Origin: a virus | IMG/VR virus record: IMGVR_UViG_3300027801_002360 | Span: 1-23,388 of that record | Reading direction: 5' to 3' (one strand) | Length of the DNA: 23,388 nucleotides | Part shown: piece by piece, positions 4,236-23,388 of the stretch | Layout: every line of letters starts with the position of its first letter | Position numbering within the stretch: position 1 is the stretch's first letter | Made by a program: the position numbers and the translations under genes | The notes under the pieces: generated by a model | Seen by the model: only the letters and a program-made list of their open reading frames with translations | Told to the model about the DNA's origin: nothing | The model's database searches: none

Positions 4236-5042
4236 ATGGCACAAAGATATTATCCTAAATCACAAAGACATTTAGGCCAGTTCACTTCTGGCCAGGAATG
4301 GATGCATCCTATTAGTTTCGAAGAATATAAAGGACCTTATCATTATTATGGAAAATATGATATAGTATTTACCGGAGCATCAAAAACTGCAACCTCTAAA
4401 TTATTAATTCCTTATATTAATGTAGCTACAGATCCACAAAATTTTCTATACAATCGCATTACGGATATATCATTAGGAGAATATATAGCACCTATCTCCA
4501 AAAAGCCTGTACCGACATCTGCAGATATTAGTACTGGATATATGATGCGGTATTTTATAAAAAAATCAAATGATGTTTCTGCTCCGGTTATCGAAATAGA
4601 TATGAAGCAATATAGAAAATGCATCGCAAGACCAGGCCGACATATCAACGGAGCCTTATTTAACAAGATCTCATTGAGGTGGAAGATACGAGGTATAAGA
4701 AGAGATCTAGATAATGTCAAGGGCGTAGAAGATACAAATCGCAGAACTGTATATGCTAAAAATATATTATTCAACGGCCTTGCGGACCTCTTAAGAGATT
4801 TAACTAGGTATACTGAATATGATCAAATTGCGGTTCAGAATGGCCCAGGTATATTCATTCCTGATTTCTATGAAACAAATGGATCGGAATTTGTATTTAC
4901 TGATGGATCGCCATATACTGGATTCTATCATATACATCCAACATATGGTGCATTAGTAGGAAAGAAACATAGTAATACATTTCGCCAAGATAAATTATTA
5001 TCCTTTTCGGAATATGCAATTATCCAGGCCAGCGCAAAATAA
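4236..5042 (+). CDS. Putative virion structural protein, 268 aa
   Basis: Not assignable to a named family. The last ~50 residues contain GSPYTGFYHIHPTYGALVGK followed by KHS, and end with a LLSFSEYA stretch. I have the impression that similar Y-x-G-x-Y-H-x-H segments occur near the ends of other marine phage structural proteins, but this could not be checked here. The rest is mixed alpha/beta and rich in Tyr, Lys and Arg, without signal peptide, membrane segment or catalytic motif. It starts 2 bases after the hub-like gene and is the last member of the tail block; the following gap holds a promoter-like sequence. A baseplate or tail-associated role is inferred from position only. Confidence 0.45.
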   Translation: MAQRYYPKSQRHLGQFTSGQEWMHPISFEEYKGPYHYYGKYDIVFTGASKTATSKLLIPYINVATDPQNFLYNRITDISLGEYIAPISKKPVPTSADISTGYMMRYFIKKSNDVSAPVIEIDMKQYRKCIARPGRHINGALFNKISLRWKIRGIRRDLDNVKGVEDTNRRTVYAKNILFNGLADLLRDLTRYTEYDQIAVQNGPGIFIPDFYETNGSEFVFTDGSPYTGFYHIHPTYGALVGKKHSNTFRQDKLLSFSEYAIIQASAK

Positions 5043-5055
5043 AGCTACTAAATAA

Positions 5056-5088
5056 TTAGGTTATTTGTAGAATTTTCATTATAATTAT
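5056..5088 (+). promoter_or_regulatory. Predicted promoter (TTAGGTT-N16-TTATAATTAT)
   Basis: The gap after the tail block holds TTAGGTT at 5056-5062, 16 bases, then TTATAATTAT at 5079-5088. Order and spacing match four stronger copies elsewhere in the window. The downstream box includes a perfect TATAAT (5080-5085) only six bases before the ATG at 5092, so the transcript would start at or next to the start codon. Confidence 0.55.
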
Positions 5089-5091
5089 ATA

Positions 5092-6438
5092 ATGAAGATT
5101 GTAGAAGATGATATTCGGTTACAAGAGTTGCAAGCCTCTTTAAAGTTATCTGATAGCTTTTGGATTCCTATATTTTCTGATATATATCGACATTATGTAA
5201 ATAATGAAATAAGTTTTGTTTATATTTACATATTTGATACCAAAACGGAATATATAGTCCCATACCGTCATAAGGATTGCTTATGCCTGGAATCCGAACA
5301 TCTAAACCACCTTACAAGTAACGCTAATATCTTTGTACTCGGCAAGAAACGCTTTGTAAATTCTTACCATCATAAGACGTTTGACGCAGATTTAGTAGAG
5401 TATTTCCAAAGCAATAAGATGTTACAGTTAGATGATACAGATACCAATGCACATGACTGGTATAACAAATGGTATTACAATGAAACTAATGTAAATGATT
5501 ATATTCCTATTGTTAAACACTTTGAAAGATGTTCTGCAATGAAGGATAAATTTGTAGAATCTTATAATACATTTAAGATGTCTGATTCATTTGAATATTA
5601 TAATGAATTGTTTATAGATAATTTATATGCAATAGAAAGGAACGGATTAAAAGTTGATTATGCTAAGTTTGTAGAAAAGTTTCATACAAATAATTTAATT
5701 AATTCAACCGCATATACAGAGTATAATATTTATACATCCACCGGTCGTCCTTCTAATAAACATGGCGGTGTAAATTATGCTGCAATTAATAAAGAAAACG
5801 GCTCTAGAGAATCATTTATTTCAAGGCATGAATATGGCATGTTAATTGAATTTGATTATGATTCATATCATTTACGGTTAATAGGAGATCTAATAGATTA
5901 TAAATTACCAGAAACCTCTGTACATACATATTTAGGTAAACAATATTTTGGTAAAGAGGAATTATCAGAAGAAGACTATAATCAAAGCAAGACAATATCC
6001 TTTAGATTATTATATGGAGGAGTAGATAAAGATTTTGCAAAGATTCCATATTTTGGAAAGGTAAGAGAGTATACTTATAAGCTTTGGGATATATTTCAAG
6101 AGCAAGGTTATATTGAAACTGCAATTCTAAAAAGAAAGTTATTTAAAACAGCAATGACGGATATGAATCCAAGTAAATTGTTTAATTATTATTTACAAAG
6201 TATGGAGACGGAATATAATATGGGTGTTATAAATAAAATTAATGCATTGTTAGGTCCATATGAAACTAAATTGATCTTATATACATATGACTCGTTGTTA
6301 TTTGATTTTGCAATTAAAGATGGTAAACAATTGATACTAGATATTAAAAATACCATGACATCTAATAAATTTCCAGTTAAGATTAAAGCCGGTAAGACAT
6401 TGCAAGACCTACAAAATATGACCGATAAAATTAGTTAG
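5092..6438 (+). CDS. DNA polymerase I-like (family A) protein with altered active site
   Basis: A 448-residue protein whose C-terminal ~250 residues follow the order of family A polymerase motifs: TSTGRPS (215-221, like TxTGRLSS), GGVNYAAIN (225-233, like PNLQNIP), motif A FDYDSYHLR (254-262, like DYSQIELR), motif B SKTISFRLLYG (299-309, like AKxINFGxxYG), a GYIET helix at 339-343, and motif C LYTYDSLLF (396-404, like VHDEL). The metal-binding Asp of motifs A and C (D255, D400) and the motif B Lys (K300) remain. However the steric-gate Glu is His (H260), the motif B Arg is Tyr (Y296), the Gly after the motif B Phe is Arg, and HDE has become YDS. The ~180-residue N terminus may be a worn 3'-5' exonuclease domain, but I see no catalytic acids. 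The gene lies between tail and accessory genes, far from the family B replicase at 21559. It may be a specialised or inactive polymerase. Confidence 0.75.
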   Translation: MKIVEDDIRLQELQASLKLSDSFWIPIFSDIYRHYVNNEISFVYIYIFDTKTEYIVPYRHKDCLCLESEHLNHLTSNANIFVLGKKRFVNSYHHKTFDADLVEYFQSNKMLQLDDTDTNAHDWYNKWYYNETNVNDYIPIVKHFERCSAMKDKFVESYNTFKMSDSFEYYNELFIDNLYAIERNGLKVDYAKFVEKFHTNNLINSTAYTEYNIYTSTGRPSNKHGGVNYAAINKENGSRESFISRHEYGMLIEFDYDSYHLRLIGDLIDYKLPETSVHTYLGKQYFGKEELSEEDYNQSKTISFRLLYGGVDKDFAKIPYFGKVREYTYKLWDIFQEQGYIETAILKRKLFKTAMTDMNPSKLFNYYLQSMETEYNMGVINKINALLGPYETKLILYTYDSLLFDFAIKDGKQLILDIKNTMTSNKFPVKIKAGKTLQDLQNMTDKIS

Positions 6439-6440
6439 AG

Positions 6441-6450
6441 TATATTTATA
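6441..6450 (+). promoter_or_regulatory. AT-rich box TATATTTATA, possible promoter element
   Basis: This 10-mer fills the 16-base gap before the 582-aa gene and recurs exactly at 8225-8234 before the 130-aa gene, with a one-base variant at 15422-15431. No TTAGGAT element lies upstream. It could be the core of a different (late?) promoter class. Base composition makes chance occurrence possible. Confidence 0.3.
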
Positions 6451-8263: not shown

Positions 8264-8656
8264 ATGGCCAGGACAAATTTATTATGTACATTTGCACATA
8301 AGAAAGATTTAAGTATCATAATAGATTATGTCAAACAGAGCTATACTATTGTTGAGAAAAAACTATTTGTATTCAATGACACATCAAAACCAAATGATGT
8401 GTATGTTACATATAATGTAGATCCATCTGAAGATTATAAAAAAATTCCAAATACAATATTAATACATAGAAAGAAAGATACAAATACATTATATACAGTC
8501 AATGCATTAAATTGTATTATATTGAAAGCTAATAATGGCATTCTAGATAAGAAATTTATAATCAAATGGCCAAATTATAAAAATTCGTTGTTACTAACAG
8601 ATGGAGATGAGTTAAGACATATTCATTTAAATTTGCATAAAAGAATAGACTTATGA
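8264..8656 (+). CDS. Conserved-looking hypothetical phage protein, 130 aa
   Basis: Function unknown. The sequence (MARTNLLCTFAHKKDL at the start, TLYTVNALNCIIL in the middle, IIKWPNYKNSLLLTDGDEL near the end) is an evenly ordered alpha/beta protein without membrane segments, signal peptide or catalytic motif. I have an impression of similar short proteins with an N-T-L-Y-T-x-N-A-L-N phrase in marine T4-like phages, but could not check. Start chosen at ATG 8264 because GAGG sits 9 bases upstream; an out-of-frame ATG at 8256 gives only 18 codons. Its stop overlaps the next start (ATGA, 8653-8656), suggesting translational coupling with the metallopeptidase-like gene. Unlike its neighbours it lacks a leader with an early L/I-x-E motif. 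Confidence 0.6.
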   Translation: MARTNLLCTFAHKKDLSIIIDYVKQSYTIVEKKLFVFNDTSKPNDVYVTYNVDPSEDYKKIPNTILIHRKKDTNTLYTVNALNCIILKANNGILDKKFIIKWPNYKNSLLLTDGDELRHIHLNLHKRIDL

Positions 8657-9324: not shown

Positions 9325-9371
9325 GAAACAGAAATGAAATTACAAGAACAATACAAAAGATTATTTAAAGG
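9302..9371 (+). repeat. 70-bp direct repeat, copy 1
   Basis: Matches 9991-10060 at 68 of 70 positions by my count (differences at 9325 and 9330), with an offset of 689 bases. It spans the last codons and stop of the metallopeptidase-like gene, the 9-base gap, and the first 12 codons of the 219-aa gene. Similarity continues more weakly to about 9400. Confidence 0.95.
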
Positions 9372-9993
9372 TAAACCTAGAAGTAATGATGGAGTCTTAT
9401 TAACAGAAAATGATGACAAGATCAGATTAGCAAAAGCATATTTACCAATAGTAAAGGCAAATGCTAAACTAAAACAATTAGGATTGAAGAAAGCGGAAAT
9501 AACGTCTGACAACCGACTTAAAATGACATTTAATAAATATTTAGAGGACAGAGACGTCCTTGATGATATAATACCTATTGAAGTAAGGTGGGCAGGAATA
9601 GGAATGGATAATGATTTTGATAAAGATATCTACAATATTTACATTGTGTTTAATCTAAAGAACAGACCAGCTTCAGCAAAAAGTCCTTTAGAAGATATAG
9701 ATTGGGACTATAATAAAGAAGGAAAAACAATTTCTGTTGGAGATACATCTGATGATGGTAGAGGAACTATGGAAGCAGTAGGAACTGTTGAAATTAATGG
9801 AGTAGAATATGAATGGGCATGGACAAAAGACACAGAAAATGTAGAGGACGATGACCCAGATAGAGAAGAAGGAGCTTCCTTTTCAAATGTAACAATAGAC
9901 CCAAATGGAGAAGCAATAGATGCAATGGAAGTTGATGATGGGCTATTTGATGCTATTCATACTAATGTTTTAGCAGAATTAGGATTAGAATAA
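9334..9993 (+). CDS. Putative head-packaged protein A, 219 aa, duplicated leader
   Basis: Function unknown. The first 25 residues (MKLQEQYKRLFKGKP, then RSNDGVLLTE) form a basic amphipathic leader ending in L-T-E, which fits the L/I-x-E rule of T4-type prohead proteases. Nearly the same leader opens the next gene at 10023. The middle (residues ~65-110) is mixed alpha/beta. The last ~75 residues are very acidic and resemble the end of the 272-aa neighbour: both have (E/F)xG-T-x-x-x-N-G, then an A-x-F-x-x-V segment, D-x-x-G-E, D-A-I and a final G-L-(E/D). ATG 9334 was chosen because the repeat and the shared leader begin there. I infer an internal head protein delivered to the host; the body matches no family I know. 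Confidence 0.5.
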   Translation: MKLQEQYKRLFKGKPRSNDGVLLTENDDKIRLAKAYLPIVKANAKLKQLGLKKAEITSDNRLKMTFNKYLEDRDVLDDIIPIEVRWAGIGMDNDFDKDIYNIYIVFNLKNRPASAKSPLEDIDWDYNKEGKTISVGDTSDDGRGTMEAVGTVEINGVEYEWAWTKDTENVEDDDPDREEGASFSNVTIDPNGEAIDAMEVDDGLFDAIHTNVLAELGLE

Positions 9994-10060
9994 AAGGCCA
10001 ACTAAAAAAGTAGTAAACGGAAATGAAATTACAAGAACAATACAAAAGATTATTTAAAGG
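9991..10060 (+). repeat. 70-bp direct repeat, copy 2
   Basis: The second copy of 9302-9371. Its first three bases form the stop of the 219-aa gene. The next ~20 bases are a non-coding copy of the end of the metallopeptidase-like gene, and the rest gives the start of the 272-aa gene. Carrying a fossil of another gene's 3' end shows that a block was duplicated, not just a conserved leader retained. Confidence 0.95.
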
Positions 10061-10841
10061 CAAGCCAATGTCTAATGATGCAATCCTAATCAACGAAATA
10101 GTTTCATTTGTGAAACACAGACCTGGCAGGGTAAACCCAAAATATATACCAGGAGTAGAGGACGTTGAGGTACATAGTCATGAGCCCCATTCCACTTCTG
10201 GAAAAGATTCTAAACGAATGGCGTATAAAGGAGTAATAATTATAAATGGTGAGAAGAGACCATTTAAGACCGGTTTCGGAATTATACCACATATACCATT
10301 TTTCATATACACAGCTAAAAATGAAGAAGTTACTGATCCTTATACTGAAAAAACAGATGAGAAAGCAAAACGTGACGGAAAGAATCTTCCGGCTGATGAT
10401 TTTTGGATTATGGTTTATCGTACTTTAGCATCATATGCTTTGAGGAAGAATTTAGATGATAGTGTGACCGATAAGTGGGGTGCCGGCAGCTTGTTCGGAC
10501 GACATCCACATATTGTGAAAGGTGGCGTCGGAGGTTATGAGATAGAGATAGATAAGGCAGCAGCTAAAAAAGCAGCAGGATCAGCTAAAATACAAGTGTT
10601 AGATCACGATGATATGAGAGAGACTTCGGACAATGATTCAGGATTTGAAGGAGAATTAACTTTTGAAGGTACTTACAATGGAGAAAAATGGACCGCAACT
10701 AAAGAATATTTAGGTGATGGTGCAATATTTACATCAGTCTATGATGCAGATGGAGAAAATATGGAAGATGATAGAGAAGAGGTATATGAAGAGATTATAG
10801 ATGCTATTAATGAATATATAGGAAAAGAAGGCTTAGATTAG
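10023..10841 (+). CDS. Putative head-packaged protein B, 272 aa, duplicated leader
   Basis: Function unknown. The leader (MKLQEQYKRLFKGKP, then MSNDAILINE) is almost identical to that of the 219-aa gene and ends in I-N-E, again an L/I-x-E site. The body between residues ~30 and 190 has no counterpart in its neighbour: it includes a basic/His-containing segment (VEVHSHEPHS), a hydrophobic IIPHIPFFIY stretch and a Lys/Ala-rich run near residues 178-190. The last ~70 residues are acidic and look paralogous to the end of the 219-aa protein. The stop overlaps a promoter-like TTAGGAT element. A packaged effector with a shared targeting leader and shared C-terminal domain is my inference; the central domain may hold the specific activity. 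Confidence 0.5.
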   Translation: MKLQEQYKRLFKGKPMSNDAILINEIVSFVKHRPGRVNPKYIPGVEDVEVHSHEPHSTSGKDSKRMAYKGVIIINGEKRPFKTGFGIIPHIPFFIYTAKNEEVTDPYTEKTDEKAKRDGKNLPADDFWIMVYRTLASYALRKNLDDSVTDKWGAGSLFGRHPHIVKGGVGGYEIEIDKAAAKKAAGSAKIQVLDHDDMRETSDNDSGFEGELTFEGTYNGEKWTATKEYLGDGAIFTSVYDADGENMEDDREEVYEEIIDAINEYIGKEGLD

Positions 10842-10988: not shown

Positions 10989-11765
10989 ATGGCAATTAAC
11001 TTAGACGCGATTAAGGCAAAGCTTAATCAATTACAAACGACGAATAATAGATCGTCAAACTTATGGAAACCTGAACCAGGCAAACAAATAATCAGGATCG
11101 TACCATACCAGCACAATAAAGATAATCCATTCAGTGAATTGTATTTTCATTATGACTTAGGTAAGAAAAACTTTCTATCACCGATAACGCATGGCCATCC
11201 AGATCCTGTAGTAGAATTTTCCGAAAAATTGAAATCTTCTGGTAATTCGGATGAATGGAAATTGGGGAAGAAGATGGAACCTAAAATGAGATGTTATGCA
11301 CCGGTACTTGTAAGAGGTGCTGAATCAGAAGGTGTTAAGTTTTGGGGATTCGGTAAACTAGTTTACCAAGAATTGTTAGGAGTGATCGCTGATCCAGATT
11401 ATGGAGATATTACAGACCCAATGAATGGTAGAGACATCTTAATAGAATTTACGCCAGCAGAAGGTGCAGGATCATATCCTAAAACAGCTATTAGAGTAAA
11501 GCCAAACGTCTCTGCAATATCAGATGATACCAATGTTTCTACAGCAGCACTTAGTAGTCAGCCAGATTTGAAGGATATCTTTAAAGAGCCATCATATGAT
11601 GAATTGAAAGATGCATTAGCACTTTGGTTAGATCCAGAAGGTGGTGACGCAGTAGATCCAGCATCAACGGCTCCAGAAAAGGCCACTTCTCAAGTAGCTA
11701 CTCCGGCAGGAGTTAACAAAGTAGATGACGTTTCAACGGCATTTGATACATTGTTTAACGAGTAA
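10989..11765 (+). CDS. 32: Single-stranded DNA-binding protein, gp32-like
   Basis: The T4 gp32-type protein that coats single-stranded DNA during replication and recombination and works with UvsX, the helicase and the polymerase. The 258-residue protein has a Lys-containing N-terminal helix (MAINLDAIKAKLNQLQ), an OB-fold core (GKQIIRIVPY, then FHYDLGKKNFLSP) and a short acidic C-terminal tail ending FDTLFNE, in the gp32 order. Length is slightly below T4's ~300. In T4 a zinc-binding loop reads roughly THG ... CPVC; here the matching place reads ITHGHPDPVV (66-75), so the two Cys are absent. It starts after an A-rich leader with two upstream promoter-like copies and is followed 11 bases later by uvsX. 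Confidence 0.85.
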   Translation: MAINLDAIKAKLNQLQTTNNRSSNLWKPEPGKQIIRIVPYQHNKDNPFSELYFHYDLGKKNFLSPITHGHPDPVVEFSEKLKSSGNSDEWKLGKKMEPKMRCYAPVLVRGAESEGVKFWGFGKLVYQELLGVIADPDYGDITDPMNGRDILIEFTPAEGAGSYPKTAIRVKPNVSAISDDTNVSTAALSSQPDLKDIFKEPSYDELKDALALWLDPEGGDAVDPASTAPEKATSQVATPAGVNKVDDVSTAFDTLFNE

Positions 11766-11776
11766 TATAGATATAC

Positions 11777-12931
11777 ATGGCAAAGAAAAGTAAAGCTGAA
11801 CAAGCGGACGAGCTTGCAACAGCGTTAGGAGAGAGTATTAGAGAAGGCCTTAATAAGAAATTCAAACATACTAACTATAAAGTTGCATATTTCCTAGATG
11901 GAGATACAGACTCCCCATCTGAAGTGAAAGGCTGGGTAGGCTCTGGATCGTCTATGTTAGACCTAGCCATTGCAAATAGACCAGGAGGAGGATTTCCAGT
12001 TGGTAGAATAACTGAGATAACAGGATTAGAAGCATCAGGTAAATCATTATTAGCAGCTCATGCTTTAGCGGATACGCAGAAGCAAGGAGGGCTAGCGGTT
12101 TATATTGATACAGAAAATGCTGTTAGTAGAGAATTCCTTGAAGCAATTGGATTAGATTTAGAAAAAATGCTTTATGTTCCATTAGATACCATTGAAGATA
12201 TCTTTGAAGCAATTGAAAGTATTATTGAGTCGGTTAGAAAATCTAGTAAGGACCGATTGGTGACAATCGTAGTAGATTCAGTAATGGGAGCTTCAACAAA
12301 GATTGAGCAAGCGGATGATTATGATAAAGCAGGTTGGGCAACATCCAAAGCTATTATATTATCAAAAGGTATGCGGAAGATTACAAATCTTCTCGGTAGA
12401 CAAAAGGTTGCTCTATTGTTTACTAATCAGCTTCGGTCAAGGTTAGGAGTAGCATTTGGTGATCCATGGACAACTAGTGGAGGAAAGGCAATTCCATTTC
12501 ACTCATCAGTACGGTTACGATTGAAATCAGTAGGACAGATCAAAGTCAAGAAAGATGGAGTTGATCAAACTGTTGGTATCAAAACTAGGTGCCAAGTTAT
12601 TAAAAATAGAATGGGTCCACCATTAAAGACTATCGATTATGATATTTACTTTGAGAGTGGAATAGATAATTTTGGTGGCTGGTTAAATGTTATGAAACAA
12701 CATAAATTGGTGAGTACAGCAGGTGCGTGGTATACATATACAAAGGCAGATGGTACAGATGTAAAATTCTTGTCAAAGGACTTTCAAGGTAAACTTGAAG
12801 CAGATCCGGAATTGAAGGATGAGATATACAAAGGTATTTGTGATGCGTATATATTAACATACAAACCTGGTGATAATATTGGAATAGATGATGTTGAAAT
12901 TGATGAAGACTTTGTAGGTGAAGAATCATAA
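11777..12931 (+). CDS. uvsX: UvsX RecA-like recombinase
   Basis: A 384-residue ATP-dependent strand-exchange protein of the RecA/UvsX family, which pairs homologous DNA and starts recombination-dependent replication with gp32. Walker A is GLEASGKS (83-90), followed by the adenine-side VYIDTENAV strand with the conserved Glu, and Walker B is VTIVVDSV near residue 165. A LLFTNQLRSRLG segment (the RecA switch region with Asn-Gln) and a GGKAIPFHSSVRLRL segment follow in the RecA order. The acidic C terminus (DDVEIDEDFVGEES) is UvsX-like. Length is close to T4 UvsX (~390). It lies 11 bases after ssb, in the usual replication block. Confidence 0.93.
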   Translation: MAKKSKAEQADELATALGESIREGLNKKFKHTNYKVAYFLDGDTDSPSEVKGWVGSGSSMLDLAIANRPGGGFPVGRITEITGLEASGKSLLAAHALADTQKQGGLAVYIDTENAVSREFLEAIGLDLEKMLYVPLDTIEDIFEAIESIIESVRKSSKDRLVTIVVDSVMGASTKIEQADDYDKAGWATSKAIILSKGMRKITNLLGRQKVALLFTNQLRSRLGVAFGDPWTTSGGKAIPFHSSVRLRLKSVGQIKVKKDGVDQTVGIKTRCQVIKNRMGPPLKTIDYDIYFESGIDNFGGWLNVMKQHKLVSTAGAWYTYTKADGTDVKFLSKDFQGKLEADPELKDEIYKGICDAYILTYKPGDNIGIDDVEIDEDFVGEES

Positions 12932-12962
12932 ACAACTTCAGAAATTTTTCCAAGACGTTGTC

Positions 12963-13988
12963 ATGGAACATCAAGAAGGTAGACCATCGGATATTAATAG
13001 TAACATATTGATACTCGATGGTCTTAATACCTTTATTAGAGTATTCTCTGCAGTACCCGCATTGAATGATGACGGAGACCATATCGGAGGAGTAACAGGA
13101 TTCTTGAGATCATTAGCTGCTAATATTCGGTTATTAAAGCCGACTCGAGTTATTGTATGTTTTGATGGAAAGGGTGGCTCTAAGCGTAGAAAGAAGATGT
13201 TTCCAGAATATAAAGCAAATAGAGCTGTTAAGACTGCATTTAACAGATATAAAGAATTTGCATCACTAACGGACGAATCTGATTCTATGAAAAAGCAATT
13301 TGGTAGATTAATAGAATATCTAGACTGCCTCCCAATAACAATGTTATCAGTTGATAATATTGAAGCCGATGATGCAATCGCATATATTGCAAACGAGGTA
13401 TATACAGATCCGACTCAGAAAGTAAAAATTGTATCTACTGATAGAGACTTTTTACAATTAGTAAATGATAGAATTTCTGTTTGGAGTCCAATTAAAAAGA
13501 AAATGTATAATCCAAGATTGATGCATGAAGAATTTGGAATTAATGCTTCTAACTATTTATTATATAGGACATTCCTAGGTGACCCTTCAGATAATATTCC
13601 TGGGGTCAAGGGTGTTGCATTAAAATCACTTAAAAAGTTCTTTCCGATGATTACTGAAAATAGGTTAGTAGAGGTAAGTGAGATTTTAGATCATGCACGT
13701 GACGGCGTAACTGCCGGCCGCTACAAAATATTCAAGTCCGTGGTTGAATCAGAAGCCCAGGTAGACTTGAACTATAATCTTATGCAACTTAAACAGGTGG
13801 ATATAGCCGGATCTATTAAGCTAATGATACATGATAAGGTAAAGGAACCTGTTTTAAAGTTAAATACGTTCCAATTTAAGAAAATGTTTATGGCTGATAA
13901 GATGTATACTATTATAAAAGATTTGGATACATGGCTGTCAACTTCTTTTAATACTCTCAATGCATATATTCAGATGCAAAAAGATTAG
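12963..13988 (+). CDS. rnh: 5'-3' exonuclease / RNase H (FEN family)
   Basis: A flap/5'-nuclease that in T4 removes RNA primers from lagging strands. The FEN acidic residues appear in order: LILDGLN, VIVCFDGKGG with the arginine-rich KRRKK after it, VDNIEADDAIAYI, VSTDRDF and FLGDPSDNIPGVKG (a helix-turn-helix DNA-binding element). I chose ATG 12963: it puts the first catalytic Asp at residue 19, the same number as in T4 RNase H, and leaves a 31-base gap after uvsX. An in-frame GTG at 12918 would add 15 residues and overlap uvsX by 14 bases; it cannot be excluded. T4 RNase H is ~305 residues, so this one (341) has a longer C terminus. Confidence 0.9.
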   Translation: MEHQEGRPSDINSNILILDGLNTFIRVFSAVPALNDDGDHIGGVTGFLRSLAANIRLLKPTRVIVCFDGKGGSKRRKKMFPEYKANRAVKTAFNRYKEFASLTDESDSMKKQFGRLIEYLDCLPITMLSVDNIEADDAIAYIANEVYTDPTQKVKIVSTDRDFLQLVNDRISVWSPIKKKMYNPRLMHEEFGINASNYLLYRTFLGDPSDNIPGVKGVALKSLKKFFPMITENRLVEVSEILDHARDGVTAGRYKIFKSVVESEAQVDLNYNLMQLKQVDIAGSIKLMIHDKVKEPVLKLNTFQFKKMFMADKMYTIIKDLDTWLSTSFNTLNAYIQMQKD

Positions 13989-14019: not shown

Positions 14020-15372
14020 ATGACAGATAGACTAAGTTCCTATGGGTACGCATTTCAGATAAAAGTAATAACAGGGTTATTAGTAGATAGAGGATTCTTA
14101 CAACAGATATCCGACATCATGGTTCCATCATATTTTGAATCAGATGCAAATAGCTGGATAGTAGAGACTATATTAGATTACTTTACTGAGTATAAAGCAT
14201 CTCCAACTCTTGAGGTAATGAAAGTCAAACTTCAAGCCGTCGAGCAAGAGTTATTGAAGGAACAAGTAATTTCTCATTTAAAAGATGCATGGAAATATAC
14301 AGAGGCAACAGATTTAAATTATATTAAAGACCAAGCATTAGATTTCTGTAAAAATCAAGAAATCAAAAGAGCAATTTTAGCATCTGTAGAGTTATTAAAG
14401 AATGGTGATTATGAAGGAATTAAACATGCAGTAGATGATGCCTTAAAGGCCGGAGCAGATAAAGATATTGGACATGATTATATGGTCGAAATAGATGAAC
14501 GGTATACAGACGCAGTTAGAGATGTACAACCTACTCCATGGGATGTTATTAATGAATTAACAGATGGTGGGTTAGGTAAAGGTGAATTAGGAGTAATGGT
14601 TGCTCCTGCAGGAATTGGTAAGTCTTGGGCATTAATGAACGTAGGAGCCGATGCAATCAAGAAAGGAAAAACGGTAATACATTACACATTAGAGTTAAAT
14701 CAAGCATATGTAGGCTTGAGATATGATTCAGTTATTACAGGAATTGCAAATCAAAATTTAAAACATTACAAAGAAGATATTAAAGAACAATTATCTAAAT
14801 TGAAAGGAGAGTTGATTATTAAACATTATCCTACCAAATCAGTAGGTGTTATGGGCATAAGAGCTCATATAGAAAAATGTATAATGCAAGGTAAAAAGCC
14901 AGATGTTGTTATAGTAGATTATGCAGACCTTTTAAGGGGCCATGGTCAAGAAAAACGACATGAGTTAGAAGGTATATATGAAGACCTAAGAGGCATGGCA
15001 GGAGAATATGAAATACCAGTATGGACGGCATCTCAAGCAAATAGATCTGCATTAGAAGAAGATGTAATTGATGCAAGTAAGATATCAGAATCATATGGTA
15101 AAGTAATGGTTGCAGATTTTGTATTATCATTATCTAGAAAGGTTGCAGATAAATTGGCAGGTACAGGAAGATGGCATGTAATCAAGAATAGATTTGGACC
15201 TGATGGCATTACATTACCAAGTAAAATGAATACATCTAATGGCCAATTCCATATATATGCAGAAACATCTATAGGTGGTAAGGATACGCAAAAGCAAATG
15301 GATGGTGGCAATGAGCTTACAAGAAAGTTATTGGCACGTAAATACCAAGAAATTAATGATGGCTTTGAGTAA
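14020..15372 (+). CDS. 41: Replicative DNA helicase, gp41/DnaB-like
   Basis: The hexameric helicase that unwinds the fork ahead of the gp43 polymerase. The 450-residue protein has an N-terminal helical domain (~1-150, DnaB-N type) and a RecA-like C-terminal domain with Walker A APAGIGKS (195-202), Walker B VVIVDYADLL (near 296-305) and a following segment with Gln in WTASQANRS, as in DnaB/gp41 helicases. The final part (RKVADKLAGTGRWHVIKNRFGPDG) is the usual arginine-finger/sensor region. Length is close to T4 gp41 (475). There is no Shine-Dalgarno, and a promoter box almost touches the ATG. No separate primase gene is visible in the window. Confidence 0.92.
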   Translation: MTDRLSSYGYAFQIKVITGLLVDRGFLQQISDIMVPSYFESDANSWIVETILDYFTEYKASPTLEVMKVKLQAVEQELLKEQVISHLKDAWKYTEATDLNYIKDQALDFCKNQEIKRAILASVELLKNGDYEGIKHAVDDALKAGADKDIGHDYMVEIDERYTDAVRDVQPTPWDVINELTDGGLGKGELGVMVAPAGIGKSWALMNVGADAIKKGKTVIHYTLELNQAYVGLRYDSVITGIANQNLKHYKEDIKEQLSKLKGELIIKHYPTKSVGVMGIRAHIEKCIMQGKKPDVVIVDYADLLRGHGQEKRHELEGIYEDLRGMAGEYEIPVWTASQANRSALEEDVIDASKISESYGKVMVADFVLSLSRKVADKLAGTGRWHVIKNRFGPDGITLPSKMNTSNGQFHIYAETSIGGKDTQKQMDGGNELTRKLLARKYQEINDGFE

Positions 15373-17404: not shown

Positions 17405-18298
17405 ATGAGACTATCACGGTATGTTGGTAATACACCATTAGTTCCAATCAGAGTAGGGAAATATACAGTATGGGGTAAGTGTGAATTCATGAACCCCGGA
17501 GGATCTGTTAAAGATAGGATGGCGACATATATCTTAAATGATGCCGAAGATAGAGGACTAATCAAAAAGGGTGATACTTTAATAGAAGCAACTTCGGGTA
17601 ACACTGGAATTGCTTTTGCAATGTTAGCAGCAGAGAGAGGATATAAGATGAAAATTGTTATGCCATCTAATATGAGCGAAGAGCGGAAGCAAATGTTAAA
17701 GTTTTATGGAGCAGGCCTTATACAAGTAGACCCAGGAGATTTTGATGGAGCAATAGAAATGAGAGATACTCTAGCAGAATCCTTTGGGTGGTTTAATTGC
17801 AATCAATTTCATAATCCCTTAAACATAGAGGCTCACTACAAAACAACCGGCCCTGAGATTGATATACAATTTAGAGATATGCACCGAGGTGAGGAAGAAT
17901 GGCAAGAAGTATTTATAGTAGGAACAGGTACTGGCGGAACGATAATGGGAGCCGGTCAATACCTTAAGGAACAAACTCCCGGAATAAAGCTAATTGCAGT
18001 TGAACCTGCCGAAAGTGCAGTGATGAGTGGATATGAACCCGGTCTACATGGTATACAAGGTATAGGTGATGGCAGTAAGTTCTTAGTTGATATAGAGGAG
18101 ATTGATGGGGTAGTAGCAGTACCGACAGAGTGTGCAAAAGCCACAGCAAGACATCTAGCAAAGAACTATGGATTGTTTGTAGGAATAAGTGCAGGCGCGA
18201 ATGTGTATGCATCATTCCAATGGCTAAGAGATAACGGGAAAACTAATGCCATTACAATATTATGTGATAGAGGCGAAAGATATTTAAGTTGTTTATAA
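17405..18298 (+). CDS. cysK: Cysteine synthase (O-acetylserine sulfhydrylase), PLP-dependent
   Basis: Converts O-acetylserine and sulfide into cysteine. All fold-type II PLP landmarks are present: YVGNTPLVPI at the start, NPGGSVKDR with the Schiff-base Lys K36, the substrate loop TSGNTG (63-68), the phosphate-binding loop GTGTGGT (173-179), and the CysK-type SGYEPGLHGIQGIGDG loop. CDRGERYLS is near the end. At 297 residues it is near-complete, slightly short compared with bacterial CysK (~310-320). It sits alone between the reductase and the que cluster, on the same strand. A phage-carried host metabolic gene is the natural reading; cystathionine beta-synthase-like enzymes share the fold, but the loop favours CysK. 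Confidence 0.9.
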   Translation: MRLSRYVGNTPLVPIRVGKYTVWGKCEFMNPGGSVKDRMATYILNDAEDRGLIKKGDTLIEATSGNTGIAFAMLAAERGYKMKIVMPSNMSEERKQMLKFYGAGLIQVDPGDFDGAIEMRDTLAESFGWFNCNQFHNPLNIEAHYKTTGPEIDIQFRDMHRGEEEWQEVFIVGTGTGGTIMGAGQYLKEQTPGIKLIAVEPAESAVMSGYEPGLHGIQGIGDGSKFLVDIEEIDGVVAVPTECAKATARHLAKNYGLFVGISAGANVYASFQWLRDNGKTNAITILCDRGERYLSCL

Positions 18299-18676: not shown

Positions 18677-19177
18677 ATGGGAAAATATCAATCAACAAAA
18701 GTATTCGATAACTACTCAGTAGCGTTAAGACAATGGAAAGCATCGCATTCACATTGCGAGTTATTGCATGGATATGCTTTAAAATTTAAAGTATGGTTCG
18801 AATCTAACGCACCCCTAGAAGGAGTTGGCTCGAACGATCAACTAGATGAGATGAATTGGATAATGGACTATGGAGGATTTAAATCTACAGACGCTAAGCC
18901 GACGCCCGGTAATGGGTTAAAAGATTGGATGAATTATATGTGGGACCATACATTACTAATTGAAAAGGACGACCCATATTTAGACTTCTTTCAATCGGCT
19001 GCAATGGAAGGTATTTGTGCATTGAGAGTGATGGATAAGATGGGAGCAGAGTCATGTGCTAAATTAGTATATGATAAATTTAATGATGTAATGTCTAAGA
19101 CCGGTGGAGGTAGAGTAAAAGTAGTAAAAGTAGAATGTTGGGAAGCAGATAGGAACTCATCAATATATAGAGGTTGA
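18677..19177 (+). CDS. queD: 6-carboxy-tetrahydropterin synthase, QueD-like
   Basis: Converts 7,8-dihydroneopterin triphosphate, the product of FolE, into 6-carboxy-tetrahydropterin, the second step of 7-deazaguanine synthesis. The family core is visible: ASHSHCELLHGYALKF with the catalytic Cys (C27) four residues before H31, a WIMDYGGFK segment (D64), WDHTLLIEKDDPYL (D90-H91) and a C-terminal KVECWEADRNSSIY with the conserved Glu. The usual zinc-binding H-G-H reads H-G-Y here. At 166 residues it is longer than E. coli QueD (~120). It ends 2 bases before queE and shares the run with folE, which supports the pathway assignment. Confidence 0.83.
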   Translation: MGKYQSTKVFDNYSVALRQWKASHSHCELLHGYALKFKVWFESNAPLEGVGSNDQLDEMNWIMDYGGFKSTDAKPTPGNGLKDWMNYMWDHTLLIEKDDPYLDFFQSAAMEGICALRVMDKMGAESCAKLVYDKFNDVMSKTGGGRVKVVKVECWEADRNSSIYRG

Positions 19178-19179
19178 TT

Positions 19180-19953
19180 ATGAATAAGAGACTAACAGAT
19201 TATAATAAAGTATTACCAGTACTAGAAGTGTACCGATGTGTGCAATCAGAAGGATCTCGATTCGGCCGTCCTACAATAGCAGTTAGGACTACTGGATGTA
19301 CTCATAGATGCTTTTTTGGTGAAGGTGGATGGTGCGACTCATGGTATACAAGTATACATCCAGAGAAAGGTACGTTTACCTTTAATGATATAGTTAAAAT
19401 ATATGACGAGAATCCGCATGTAAAAGAAATGATGTTAACAGGTGGATCGCCGACAATGCATCCAGCCTTGGTAAACGAATTAACACATTTTGCATTTAAG
19501 AGAGGAATTGTTGTTACCATTGAAACAGAAGGAAGTCATTTTGTTGAAACCGACTTTCCTATTGATTTAATATCAATTAGTCCGAAATTTGGTAATAGTA
19601 TTCCTGTTATTGGAGCTGTTACTCCTGGCGGAAAGGTGGTTGATGAAAGGATGGTTAAGACTCATAATAGGCTTAGGTTAAATACGGATGCAATTAAAAA
19701 GATGATTGCATTTCATAATGATTACCACTACAAGCCTGTATGGGATGGATCCGATCATAATTTAAATGAGATTGAACTATATAGGAAAGAATTAGGCATC
19801 CCAAAACATAAAACATACATAATGCCAGCTGGCGATACTAGAGAGACATTAATTAAAATGTATCCGATAGTATTTGAAATGGTAGCAGAGCATGGATATA
19901 ATATGACAGGCAGAGATCATATTATAGCATATGATACACAGCGAATGGTATAA
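19180..19953 (+). CDS. queE: 7-carboxy-7-deazaguanine synthase, QueE-like radical SAM enzyme
   Basis: Converts 6-carboxy-tetrahydropterin to 7-carboxy-7-deazaguanine through a radical SAM reaction. The N terminus has the QueE phrase VYRCVQSEGSRFGRPT and the iron-sulfur ligands in TTGCTHRCFFGEGGWCDS: C40-x3-C44-x7-C52, instead of the common C-x3-C-x2-C. MLTGGSPTMHP (86-96) takes the place of the radical SAM GGEP motif, and IDLISISPKF follows. I chose ATG 19180; an in-frame TTG at 19174 would add two residues and overlap queD. At 257 residues it is slightly longer than many QueE proteins. The stop overlaps the ATG of a 46-aa ORF (TAATG). Confidence 0.88.
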   Translation: MNKRLTDYNKVLPVLEVYRCVQSEGSRFGRPTIAVRTTGCTHRCFFGEGGWCDSWYTSIHPEKGTFTFNDIVKIYDENPHVKEMMLTGGSPTMHPALVNELTHFAFKRGIVVTIETEGSHFVETDFPIDLISISPKFGNSIPVIGAVTPGGKVVDERMVKTHNRLRLNTDAIKKMIAFHNDYHYKPVWDGSDHNLNEIELYRKELGIPKHKTYIMPAGDTRETLIKMYPIVFEMVAEHGYNMTGRDHIIAYDTQRMV

Positions 19954-20093
19954 TGAATAAAGAAGAAGTATTGCGACTATTAGATGAAATCGAATCAAAT
20001 GTAGGATCATGCTGCGCAATAACAATGGAACCAGAAGAAGTTTTGGTATTGATAGATAAGTTAAGAAAAGAATTAAAAATGGATAAATTATGA
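19953..20093 (+). CDS. Small hypothetical protein, 46 aa
   Basis: A short ORF that fits exactly between queE and the GroES-like gene. Its ATG overlaps the queE stop (TAATG, 19951-19955) and its stop overlaps the next start (ATGA, 20090-20093). Such double coupling suggests it is translated. The product is highly charged, with two helix-like halves (MNKEEVLRLLDEIESN and EEVLVLIDKLRKELKMDKL) around a central Cys-Cys pair. No family recognised; it could be a small binding or regulatory protein. Confidence 0.6.
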   Translation: MNKEEVLRLLDEIESNVGSCCAITMEPEEVLVLIDKLRKELKMDKL

Positions 20094-20395
20094 AAATGAA
20101 ACCAATGGGAGACCAATTATTACTTAAAGTGATAAAACAAGAAACTAAATCAGTTAGTGGAATAATATTATCTGCGGATGCATCAACGTTTGGAAAGGCG
20201 GAAGTGATTGCTACTGGAGATGGTGTACGTACAATGACTGGCGATTTAATTGAAATGACATGTAATGTAGGTGATACTGTAATAGCACCTACAAGTAAAT
20301 TGAGTGGCAAGAATGGAAATGAGATTACTCTAGAAGATGAAACTTATGTATTAGTAAGAGAGATGGATATTGCAATGGTCTCAATACATAACTAA
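20090..20395 (+). CDS. GroES-like co-chaperonin
   Basis: A 101-residue Cpn10 protein that would cap the host GroEL, as T4 gp31 does for folding of the capsid protein. Landmarks are KPMGDQLLLKVIKQE at the start, a mobile-loop-like segment (SVSGIILSADASTFGK, with S-G-I-I-L in the GroEL-binding place of the usual G-G-I-V-L), AEVIATGDG, and a VGDTVIAP strand before EDETYVLVREMDIAMV. Length and strand order agree with bacterial GroES (~97) more than with gp31 (111). It overlaps the 46-aa ORF by 4 bases and ends one base before the folE ATG. Its presence in a que cluster is probably operon convenience. Confidence 0.87.
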   Translation: MKMKPMGDQLLLKVIKQETKSVSGIILSADASTFGKAEVIATGDGVRTMTGDLIEMTCNVGDTVIAPTSKLSGKNGNEITLEDETYVLVREMDIAMVSIHN

Positions 20396-20396
20396 T

Positions 20397-21053
20397 ATGA
20401 AGGAATTAAATTTAGAACTAGTAAAGGAAGGATTTGCAAACGGTGTTGCAAAAGATCGACCTTTGACAGAACAAGAAAAGCTAGATATGATTTCTATGGC
20501 CGAACAGGCATTTGGAAAGTTTTTAGATGCACTGAAAGTTGATTGGAAGAACGATCCTAACTCAGATAAGACTCCTTATAGAGTTGCAAAGGCATATGTA
20601 AATGATCTATGGGCTGGCCGGTATGAAGCGCCGCCAACTATAACAACCTTTCCTAGTGATGGGTATGATGGTATGGTATTTGAAGGCGGCATTCCATTGA
20701 CGTCCATGTGTTCACATCATCATCAGACTATTATGGGAAAGGTGCATGTAGCATATATTCCAGGAAAGGATAGTCATGTAATAGGATTGTCAAAACTAAA
20801 TAGATTAGTAGAACATTTTGCTCGCAGAGGTGCCATTCAAGAACAATTAACTGTCGCCATTCATAATGCAATGGATACTATTATTGAAGATAATGCAGGT
20901 GTAGCAGTAATGATTGACGCAACTCATAATTGTGTACAATGTAGAGGTGTTAAACATGGAGGTGCGAGTATGAAGACTAGTAAATTGACTGGCGCATTTA
21001 AAGCTGATGCAGCTACAAGAAATGAATATTATGAATTTGTAAGAGGTTACTAA
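20397..21053 (+). CDS. folE: GTP cyclohydrolase I, FolE
   Basis: Converts GTP to 7,8-dihydroneopterin triphosphate, the entry step to both folate and 7-deazaguanine synthesis; queD and queE follow it in the pathway and lie just upstream. Motifs: DKTPYRVAKAYV, IPLTSMCSHHHQ with zinc ligands C105 and H107/H108, HVIGLSKLNRLVEHFARR, QEQLT, and ATHNCVQCRGV with the third zinc Cys near 179, then a TGAFKAD end. I chose ATG 20397 over an in-frame TTG at 20370 that overlaps the GroES gene. At 218 residues it is of normal length. The stop and next start share TAATG (21051-21055). Confidence 0.92.
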   Translation: MKELNLELVKEGFANGVAKDRPLTEQEKLDMISMAEQAFGKFLDALKVDWKNDPNSDKTPYRVAKAYVNDLWAGRYEAPPTITTFPSDGYDGMVFEGGIPLTSMCSHHHQTIMGKVHVAYIPGKDSHVIGLSKLNRLVEHFARRGAIQEQLTVAIHNAMDTIIEDNAGVAVMIDATHNCVQCRGVKHGGASMKTSKLTGAFKADAATRNEYYEFVRGY

Positions 21054-21559
21054 TGGAGATTTTAATACCAGAATATAAAATAGAAAGACGTGTTAGGGCA
21101 TTAGCCCATGCAATATCAGAAGAGCACAAGGCATCCGGGAGCTCCTTACCGCCAGTTATGATATGTGTACTCAATGGCGGCTATGCATTTTTTGCAGATC
21201 TAATGAAGGATATGGGAATCGATGTACAAATGGATTTCATTAGAGCTAAATCATATGTAGGAAAAGATAATTCGGGCGGAGTTACAATTACAAAGGATTT
21301 GGAAATTCATTGTAAAGGAAAGCGTGTTTATATTATTGATGATATAGTAGATACTGGTAAGACAATGTTTGAAATCCTATTAATAGTAAATGATATGAAA
21401 CCGGTAGACGTAAAAGTTGTTACATTACTCAAACGTAAAAAGGATAGTCCACCAGTAGATCATTTTTGTTTTGAAATAGATGATGAGTGGGTAGTAGGTT
21501 ATGGATTAGATGATAATTCATTGAAGAGAAATTATAGAAACATTTATAAACTAAATTAA
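21053..21559 (+). CDS. hpt: Hypoxanthine-type purine phosphoribosyltransferase
   Basis: Salvages hypoxanthine or guanine to the nucleotide using PRPP. The 168-residue protein has ICVLNGGYAFFADL (38-50), the PRPP-binding loop VYIIDDIVDTGKT (92-104) and the C-terminal base-recognition segment DEWVVGYGLDDN, as in bacterial Hpt (~180 residues). In this cluster it could feed GTP to FolE or recycle host purines. Attachment of PRPP to a 7-deaza base is a more speculative option, as the motif alone does not give base specificity. It starts within the folE stop (TAATG) and ends within the polymerase start (TAATG), so it is probably translated by coupling. Confidence 0.85.
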   Translation: MEILIPEYKIERRVRALAHAISEEHKASGSSLPPVMICVLNGGYAFFADLMKDMGIDVQMDFIRAKSYVGKDNSGGVTITKDLEIHCKGKRVYIIDDIVDTGKTMFEILLIVNDMKPVDVKVVTLLKRKKDSPPVDHFCFEIDDEWVVGYGLDDNSLKRNYRNIYKLN

Positions 21560-23388
21560 TGTATCAAGCAGTAGCATACCAAAGGCGTACCAATACCGTC
21601 CATATATGGGATGACGTAAAAGGTCACTTAAAGATAAAATATAAGCCATATGCATATGTAAAGAATCCATCTGGTGATTTAACAACATTAGATGGAACTC
21701 GAGTTGATAAAGTATGGAACCCAGACGAAAATGCTCCAGGACTTTATGAATCAGATCTGAATCCGGAGATGAGAACTCTAATAGATCAATATACCGATTC
21801 AGATGAGATCTCTACCGGCCATAGAACTTTATTTATTGATATCGAAGTAGATATTGAAAATGGATTTCCAACTCCAGAACAAGCTCAGAACGAGGTAACT
21901 GCAATTGCAATTTATGATGAAGCAGGTGATCAAAAACATGTTTGGATTTTAGATAAAGACTGTAAAGTTGCATCAACAAAAAAAGGTAATTTTGAAACAA
22001 CTTCTTGTCAAGATGAAGCCACTTTATTAAATAAATTCTTATTAAAATATTATGAGATACAGCCAACCTTAATTACAGGATGGAATATTGACTTTTTTGA
22101 TATACCATATCTTTATAATAGAATATGTCATGTGCTAGGGGAAACTCAGGCAAGAACATTATCACCTATTAAAGATGTAATTTGGTTAAAACATAGAGGT
22201 AGATATAGAATATCTGGAGTATCATGTTTAGATTACATGGCATTGTATAAAAACTTTACTTATAATGAAGAGTCTAGTTATTCATTAGAAGCTATATCTC
22301 AAAAAGAATTAGGTAAAGGTAAGATGAAGTACGAGGGCACCTTAGATGATTTGATGAAGAATGATATTCAAGGTTATATTGATTATAACATGAATGATGT
22401 TGATCTAGTATATGAAATAGATCAGAAAATGAAACTAATGGATCTAGCTCGTGGTATATGTCATAAAGGACATGTTCCATATGAAGATTTCTTATTTCCA
22501 ACTAGATATTTAGATGGAGCCGCATTAACATATATGAAACGGCTAGGTACAGTAGCACCTAATAAGCCTAGACATGATGAAATAAAGCATGTAGATTTAT
22601 TAGGAGCATTTGTAAAGGCCCCTAATCCAGGTAGATATAAATGGGTATATGACCTTGATTTAACGTCGTTATATCCTAGCATTATAATGACACTTAACGT
22701 TTCACCAGAAACCAAGATAGGCAAGATAGAAGGATTTGATAACCATAAATATCTTAAAGATATTCCAATGGAATATTCAATGGCCGAAGACGGTTGGGAA
22801 TCATCAATTGCATTACGATCTTATTTAACAGAAAATAAATATTCTATAGCAGCTAATGGAGTTATATATGATACTAAACAGAAAGGTTTTATATCATCTA
22901 TACTTGAAAAATGGTTTGCAGAACGAGTTGAATACAAGAACTTAAGAAAGAAATATGAAGCCGAAGGAGATGCAGCAAAGGCAGAATATTTTGATAGATT
23001 ACAATTAGTAACCAAGATTCTCTTGAATTCATTTTATGGAGTATTAGGGAATCCTACTTTTAGATTCAATGATCCGGATAACGCAGTTGCAATTACAAGT
23101 ACCGGCCAACAACTAATTAAATTTACAGCCGATATCGGTAACCAATTTTATGCAAAAGAGTTAGGAAAGAAAAAGGATTATTGTATTTACATTGATACAG
23201 ATTCAACTTTCTTTTCATCATTGCCGTTAATCAAAAGTCGTTATCCAGATTTTGATATCACTGATGAACCCTGGATGGCCGAAAAGACAATTGAGATTGC
23301 AGGCCAGGTTCAAGATTTTATTAATAGGTCATATGATATATACGCAGAAAGATTCCATAATGTAACTAATCATAAATTTGATATTAAA
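21559..23388 (+). CDS. 43: Family B DNA polymerase, gp43-like (3' partial)
   Basis: The replicative polymerase with 3'-5' proofreading. The frame is open from ATG 21559 to the end of the window, 610 codons of an expected ~850-900, so the end is missing. Exonuclease motifs: FIDIEVD (D94, E96), GWNIDFFDIPYL (D181) and DYNMNDVDL (Y276 to D280). Polymerase motifs: DLTSLYPSI (D367), KILLNSFYG (K486 to G494) and YIDTDST (D546, D548). All catalytic acids are present, so this is the active replicase. The ATG overlaps the phosphoribosyltransferase stop (TAATG, 21557-21561); no promoter is visible between them. Confidence 0.96.
   Translation, partial: MYQAVAYQRRTNTVHIWDDVKGHLKIKYKPYAYVKNPSGDLTTLDGTRVDKVWNPDENAPGLYESDLNPEMRTLIDQYTDSDEISTGHRTLFIDIEVDIENGFPTPEQAQNEVTAIAIYDEAGDQKHVWILDKDCKVASTKKGNFETTSCQDEATLLNKFLLKYYEIQPTLITGWNIDFFDIPYLYNRICHVLGETQARTLSPIKDVIWLKHRGRYRISGVSCLDYMALYKNFTYNEESSYSLEAISQKELGKGKMKYEGTLDDLMKNDIQGYIDYNMNDVDLVYEIDQKMKLMDLARGICHKGHVPYEDFLFPTRYLDGAALTYMKRLGTVAPNKPRHDEIKHVDLLGAFVKAPNPGRYKWVYDLDLTSLYPSIIMTLNVSPETKIGKIEGFDNHKYLKDIPMEYSMAEDGWESSIALRSYLTENKYSIAANGVIYDTKQKGFISSILEKWFAERVEYKNLRKKYEAEGDAAKAEYFDRLQLVTKILLNSFYGVLGNPTFRFNDPDNAVAITSTGQQLIKFTADIGNQFYAKELGKKKDYCIYIDTDSTFFSSLPLIKSRYPDFDITDEPWMAEKTIEIAGQVQDFINRSYDIYAERFHNVTNHKFDIK

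Follow-up and report, generated by a model that had tools for sequence, protein, structure and literature searches.

The open reading frame at positions 5092–6438 of a 23-kb environmental phage fragment (IMGVR_UViG_3300027801_002360; 23,388 nt, hereafter "the window") encodes a homologue of the family A DNA polymerases that, judged by aligned lengths and secondary structure, is thumbless, and that is additional to a full replisome. The protein is probably a working, specialised enzyme. Hundreds of T4-like phages, mostly environmental, carry this second conserved polymerase-like protein, contrary to the picture, adopted in the first-pass annotation of the window, in which such phages use gp43 alone.

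That annotation, whose coordinates, frame and length for the gene were correct, had described a Pol I-like protein with replaced catalytic residues. The family A likeness is not a chance one, since the product matches Pfam DNA_pol_A above the curated cut-off (5.7e-12, 45.7 bits; cut-off 34.3), a family profile retrieves Bst and Klenow Pol I from the PDB at 2-3e-6, and 98 full-length relatives show the same pattern. Among the PHROG models, phrog_17 ("DNA polymerase") was matched by 10 of 18 family members; the window member matched no PHROG model, nor did it match Pfam RNA_pol. The features discussed below are collected in Table 1.

Table 1. Positions of the polymerase homologue, its motifs and its neighbours in the window.
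Feature	Position	Strand	Basis or remark
Conserved 5' neighbour, tail-module gene	4236..5042	+	homologue at the same place in most loci
49-bp gap with AT-rich element TTCATTATAATTA at 5075-5087	5043..5091	+	kept in close relatives
Thumbless family A polymerase homologue, 448 aa	5092..6438	+	Pfam DNA_pol_A, AF2 model, superposition, 98 aligned members
N-terminal domain (about residues 1-164) at the place of the 3'-5' exonuclease	5092..5583	+	superposition from residue 1
Short linker at the thumb position (residues 186-216)	5647..5739	+	interval lengths vs. 14 family A polymerases
Motif 1 TSTGRPSN (Arg219 = Pol I Arg668)	5734..5757	+	Arg 98/98; alignment
Motif A DYDSYHLRL (Asp255 = Asp705; His260 at steric-gate Glu710)	5854..5880	+	Asp 98/98, His 98/98
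Motif B YNQSKTISFRLLYG (Tyr296 at Arg754; Lys300 = Lys758)	5977..6018	+	alignments
NYYLQSMET (Asn365 = Asn845, Gln369 = Gln849, family-specific Glu372)	6184..6210	+	alignments
Motif C Tyr-Asp-Ser (Y399-D400-S401; Asp400 = Asp882)	6286..6294	+	Asp 98/98, Tyr 98/98, Ser 88 / Ala 10
Frequent 3' neighbour, 582 aa	6455..8203	+	seen in about 70 loci
Constant 130-aa companion, candidate partner	8264..8656	+	HRKK.TNTLYTINALN motif (invariant core)
gp32-like single-strand binding protein	10989..11765	+	Pfam gp32 5.9e-14
UvsX/RecA-like recombinase	11777..12931	+	PHROG 97 9.5e-63
5'-3' exonuclease (Pol I 5' nuclease / T4 RNase H type)	12918..13988	+	Pfam 5_3_exonuc_N 1.8e-34
gp41/DnaB-like helicase	14020..15372	+	PHROG 19 1.1e-75
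gp43-like family B replicase, runs off the window	21559..23388	+	PHROG 262 1.5e-144

Structure prediction points to the same fold. An AlphaFold2 model computed from a 50-sequence alignment (pLDDT 93.2, pTM 0.90) ranked Pol nu and Klenow highest in Foldseek, and VIA-align superposed model residues 1-442 on Klenow-type Pol I (Z 27.8, 3.4 A, 409 residues). Palm and fingers are modelled with high confidence, and the proposed Pol I-like fold stands to that extent; of a complete palm-fingers-thumb arrangement, however, the thumb is missing. The interval from the IE..G motif to the motif 1 Arg, which would have to hold the two long antiparallel thumb helices, spans 19-37 residues in the family vs. 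121-213 in 14 other family A polymerases. Besides, there is a degenerate exonuclease-like domain at the N-terminus: as the superposition extends from residue 1 to 442, this part replaces the exonuclease domain in position, and in a weak profile alignment Pro26 and Phe28 fall at Asp355 and Glu357, so that the catalytic acids for proofreading are likely lost.

The active site combines strict conservation with a small set of replacements. Motif A aligns with that of Pol I without gaps (D255-Y-D-S-Y-H260-L-R vs. D705-Y-S-Q-I-E710-L-R), which bears out the claimed exchange of the steric-gate Glu for His; the exchanges of the motif B Arg for Tyr (Arg754 to Y296) and of HDE for YDS are present as claimed, and both metal-binding Asp and the motif B Lys are indeed retained. 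Motif B also holds Phe304 (Phe762) and Tyr308 (Tyr766). In 98 full-length members, whose identity goes down to about 27%, R219, D255, D257, H260, F304, Y308, Q369, E372, Y399, D400 and D405 are invariant, and the K300 position is Lys in 97 (X in one); the family A palm of RRM type with its two metal-binding Asp is thus found in all 98 and in the model. The RxxxK pattern of motif B is not: its Lys is kept, yet the Arg754 position holds Tyr in 86 members, Arg in just 11 and Met in one. The Glu883 position is Ser in 88 and Ala in 10.

In a joint alignment that also included T7 RNA polymerase, the gate Glu, Arg754 and His881 are all present in each of the 14 other family A DNA polymerases. The phage enzymes among them frequently have Ser or Ala in place of Glu883, however (HDS or HDA at motif C), so that only half of the YDS oddity persists: the change of His to Tyr is unusual, the loss of Glu883 common. 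Of the canonical active-site residues of Pol I, all nine (R668, D705, H734, K758, F762, Y766, N845, Q849 and D882) fall among the 29 invariant positions of the 50-sequence alignment (A2), which has a probability of 5e-12 by a simple hypergeometric count.

Three of these residues, R668, N845 and Q849, contact the minor groove of the primer-template, and Arg754 helps to hold the incoming nucleotide. How much the replacements may cost can be gauged from the Tt72 phage polymerase, an active enzyme with a natural Ser at 883, in which mutation of either Asp leaves 4% of activity, mutation of the gate Glu 35% and mutation of the Ser at 883 76% (PMC9324360). By these mutant data, the residues kept in the family are the essential ones, and two of the replaced ones (gate Glu and 883) are accessory. 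The kept residues support catalytic competence of the thumbless family, albeit without proving it. NG86 estimates of dN/dS between near relatives lie at 0.05-0.15, several pairs being close to saturation at synonymous sites, which indicates that the family is under purifying selection. Together with the invariant catalytic residues, this contradicts the idea, offered at first pass, of a DNA-binding relic.

Members of the family turn up widely in environmental contigs and almost never in culture. A plain IMG/VR search returned 39 loci and a profile scan at least 584, near-duplicates included, while the only carriers among 50,697 phage records were the immuto isolates (Flavobacterium), Microcystis phage Mel-JY01 and an uncultured 484-kb phage. 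Flavobacterium phage immuto (grown on Flavobacterium sp. LMO8), where the protein (QQO91680.1) is annotated as "DNA polymerase family A," and Mel-JY01, where it is a "hypothetical protein," are thus the cultured examples. No cellular homologue was seen among seven genome-contig matches, all of them from metagenome-assembled genomes and most with phage gene order. The PolA matches H7 and H8 from an Acinetobacter "phage" proved not to be close relatives: they are an ordinary 924-aa PolI beside chromosomal genes. The record in question (CAKLQH020000014.1, L218, "Acinetobacter phage MD-2021a") carries bacterial polA, tilS, accA and proC and resembles host sequence.

Phylogeny sets the family apart. 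In a maximum-likelihood tree of 262 columns it is monophyletic (UFBoot 97, stem 1.31) and lies outside the 13 family A lineages sampled (phage-labelled ones and E. coli); it thus belongs to none of the sampled phage polymerase clades, one of which might have identified it as a known active polymerase. T7 RNA polymerase forms a long-branch outgroup (node support 64).

The protein coexists with a separate replicase, as had been proposed. The gene at 21559, earlier called an intact gp43, is strongly gp43-like but runs off the end of the window, and full-length copies occur in relatives; of the 18 phage records tested, 14 carry a family B gp43. In immuto its place is taken by a full-size, 777-aa family A enzyme (MW353175.1 37898-40231, L044), i.e., its replicase is of family A where those of the window and Mel-JY01 are of family B, with the thumbless protein kept. 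Of 12 records, 7 have a DnaG-type primase, among them the two isolates with annotated complete genomes and the 484-kb phage, and the five records that lack one are fragments. With gp43 in most contigs and the second, full-size enzyme in immuto, a role as main replicase is ruled out; replacement of the primase is ruled out likewise by the DnaG-type enzymes of the same genomes. The thumbless protein hence substitutes for neither.

In gene order it lies between the tail module on one side and replication and recombination genes on the other. The first-pass annotation had placed the gene among tail and putative cargo genes, which holds for tail-module genes on the 5' side only; the conserved 3' neighbours form a gp32-UvsX-5' exonuclease-gp41 block. 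The order tail-module genes, polA-like gene, 6455-type gene (not always present), 8264-type gene, gp32, UvsX, 5' exonuclease, gp41 is kept across nearly all loci of sufficient length, those of the Flavobacterium phages, Mel-JY01 and the 484-kb phage included. In immuto the homologue of the immediate 5' neighbour follows the tail tape measure gene; the flanking tail-module genes gave no convincing PHROG match.

The 130-aa product of the 8264-type gene is a constant companion, occurring in the same isolates as the polA-like gene. When the 8264-type gene was searched separately, 58 of 72 new loci had a polA-like gene upstream and the remaining 14 had <1.9 kb of upstream sequence, i.e., the 58 loci with enough upstream sequence included no counter-example. 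Its structure is predicted with confidence (pLDDT 93), and comparison with PHROG, Pfam, the PDB and known folds gave nothing convincing (best Z 6.2, which is not meaningful). As the constant neighbour of the polymerase homologue, the companion is an immediate target for a partner search.

Joint regulation of the polA-like gene with the replication genes is possible. The promoter-like element claimed for the gene fared unevenly: sigma70-like sites number 15 vs. 12.6 +/- 4.0 in shuffles, i.e., not above chance, but the AT-rich element TTCATTATAATTA in the gap before the gene is conserved in close relatives and is a possible promoter. The related sequence TTATATTA has nine coding-strand copies in the window and none on the opposite strand (at 6446, 10948, 14008 and 17385, among others), several of them directly upstream of genes (the 6455-type gene, gp32, gp41 and the gene at 17405, for instance), and is possibly a phage promoter element. 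An Rfam scan of the window gave no matches.

Known systems resemble the family in part. With bacterial Pol I and its Klenow fragment it shares the palm and fingers fold, the motif 1 Arg, both metal-binding Asp, the Lys758, Phe762, Tyr766, Asn845 and Gln849 equivalents and an N-terminal domain at the exonuclease place; it differs in its length of 448 aa, in lacking a thumb, in the probable loss of the exonuclease acids, and in having His at Glu710, Tyr at Arg754 and His881, and Ser or Ala at Glu883. The phage family A replicases compared (T7 gp5, the T5-type, SPO1-type and N4-type enzymes, and those of P23-45, crAss and immuto, the last being the 777-aa enzyme) have a homologous polymerase core, and several likewise have Ser or Ala at 883, whereas thumb, gate Glu, Arg754 and His881 are all retained in them; moreover, none of them groups with the thumbless family in the tree, and the family accompanies a replicase. 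TV-Pol (Iyer, Abhiman, Aravind 2008; PMC2579912), whose published description gives it a thumb of two helices, an RxxxK motif and an association with D5 helicases or integrases/transposases, is similar in comprising small superfamily A relatives (400-600 aa) of viruses and mobile elements that have no nuclease fusion. The present family lacks the thumb, mostly has YxxxK and sits in a T4-type replication neighbourhood (gp32, UvsX, 5' exonuclease and gp41) rather than beside D5 helicases or mobile-element genes; membership is ruled out on thumb, motif and context, all taken from the published description (PMC2579912). A parallel in kind exists in the group 2.2 jumbo phages, which have a minimal Pol III alpha alongside a T4-type family B replicase (PMC7824862), i.e., a second minimal polymerase beside such a replicase, though one of Pol beta type fold and encoded in two split genes. 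We found no paper on the present family in the open-licence literature, and a thumbless small Pol I relative in T4-like phages is apparently undescribed so far.

Among the functions considered, an accessory polymerase for recombination or repair synthesis, catalytically competent, non-processive and derived from a Klenow-type family A enzyme, explains the sequences and the model best, though we would place it just short of probable. The "specialised polymerase" suggested at first pass still appears the best option: the Pol I-like fold, the replaced residues and the coexisting replicase are all supported. Without a thumb, the enzyme would add few nucleotides per encounter (distributive synthesis), working on 3' ends that gp32 and UvsX offer (in D-loops, at gaps that the 5' nuclease leaves behind, or at damaged ends) in recombination-dependent replication or repair, after which the main replicase would take over. 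The 130-aa companion could help it to hold DNA, and the His gate suggests an altered choice of nucleotides. We infer polymerase activity, distributive synthesis, altered nucleotide choice and help from the companion; DNA binding by the enzyme is an assumption, as we found no thumbless family A polymerase described in the open-licence literature. The recombination or repair step is taken solely from the neighbours, and a replication neighbourhood is no proof of a role there, given the tail-module genes on the other side; a further counterpoint to an accessory polymerase is that most members have Tyr at the Arg754 position.

A bolder version, which we consider speculative and somewhat unlikely, is that the thumbless polymerase with its rebuilt sugar gate, acting with the 8264-type product, makes ribonucleotide, mixed or untemplated products at recombination intermediates; if true, a large and uncharacterised clade of phages would have in it a second core polymerase, one that holds DNA in a novel way. 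Either way, 98 members with the core kept, a His gate and no thumb amount to an experiment of nature on the functions of thumb and steric-gate Glu in family A.

A polymerase that uses ribonucleotides, having lost the gate Glu, and makes RNA or mixed RNA/DNA (short transcripts or primers at special sites) is unlikely. The gate Glu is regarded as the residue that keeps ribonucleotides out (reviewed in PMC9324360), the family has His there throughout, and T7 RNA polymerase likewise lacks the Glu, with Gly aligned. However, a bulky His may still act as a gate beside the retained Phe304, the DnaG-type primases of the same genomes speak against a primase substitute, the tree does not firmly join the family to single-subunit RNA polymerases, and the Pfam and PDB profile matches are to DNA polymerases. 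Rather unlikely, too, is a non-catalytic DNA-binding or scaffold protein that has kept the polymerase fold: three active-site replacements and the lost thumb would fit it, but the two essential Asp and the Lys758, Tyr766 and Gln849 equivalents are fixed in a family this diverse, although a scaffold would not obviously require them. Without a thumb the protein lacks the main grip on duplex DNA but retains the catalytic Asp, as might be expected of a template-independent or end-modifying nucleotidyltransferase that extends 3' ends, an idea already raised at first pass; we regard this as improbable, since the invariant Tyr766 and the R668, N845 and Q849 equivalents point to templated synthesis.

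A virion component or injected enzyme, in keeping with the tail module on the 5' side, is very improbable, as the conserved neighbours on the 3' side are replication genes and a repeated N-terminal tag, likely a marker of head cargo, is found on none of the 98 members. This 25-aa tag (M[NK]LQE[QN]Y[KR]RLFKG..SND..L[LI]xE) is shared, with near-identical leader DNA, by two neighbouring, otherwise unrelated ORFs of the window (9334-9993 and 10023-10841), and recurs in other loci (L001, L003, L052, L057, L059, L061, L100), with [LI]xE at residues 24-25 in 14 of 16 copies. Because it resembles the capsid-targeting propeptides of T4, where the prohead protease cuts C-terminal to Glu (PMC9026906), the tagged products may be cargo proteins packaged in the head.

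The genes near gp43 merit a separate remark. QueD-, QueE- and FolE-like genes stand beside it (18677-21053 in the window; also in L044), which suggests a 7-deazaguanine pathway; immuto has QueC, QueF and a DpdA annotation as well, and DNA modification is possible. Between ribonucleotide reductase and the Que genes, positions 17405-18298 of the window encode a protein with the fold of PLP-dependent enzymes (PF00291, 9.8e-67).
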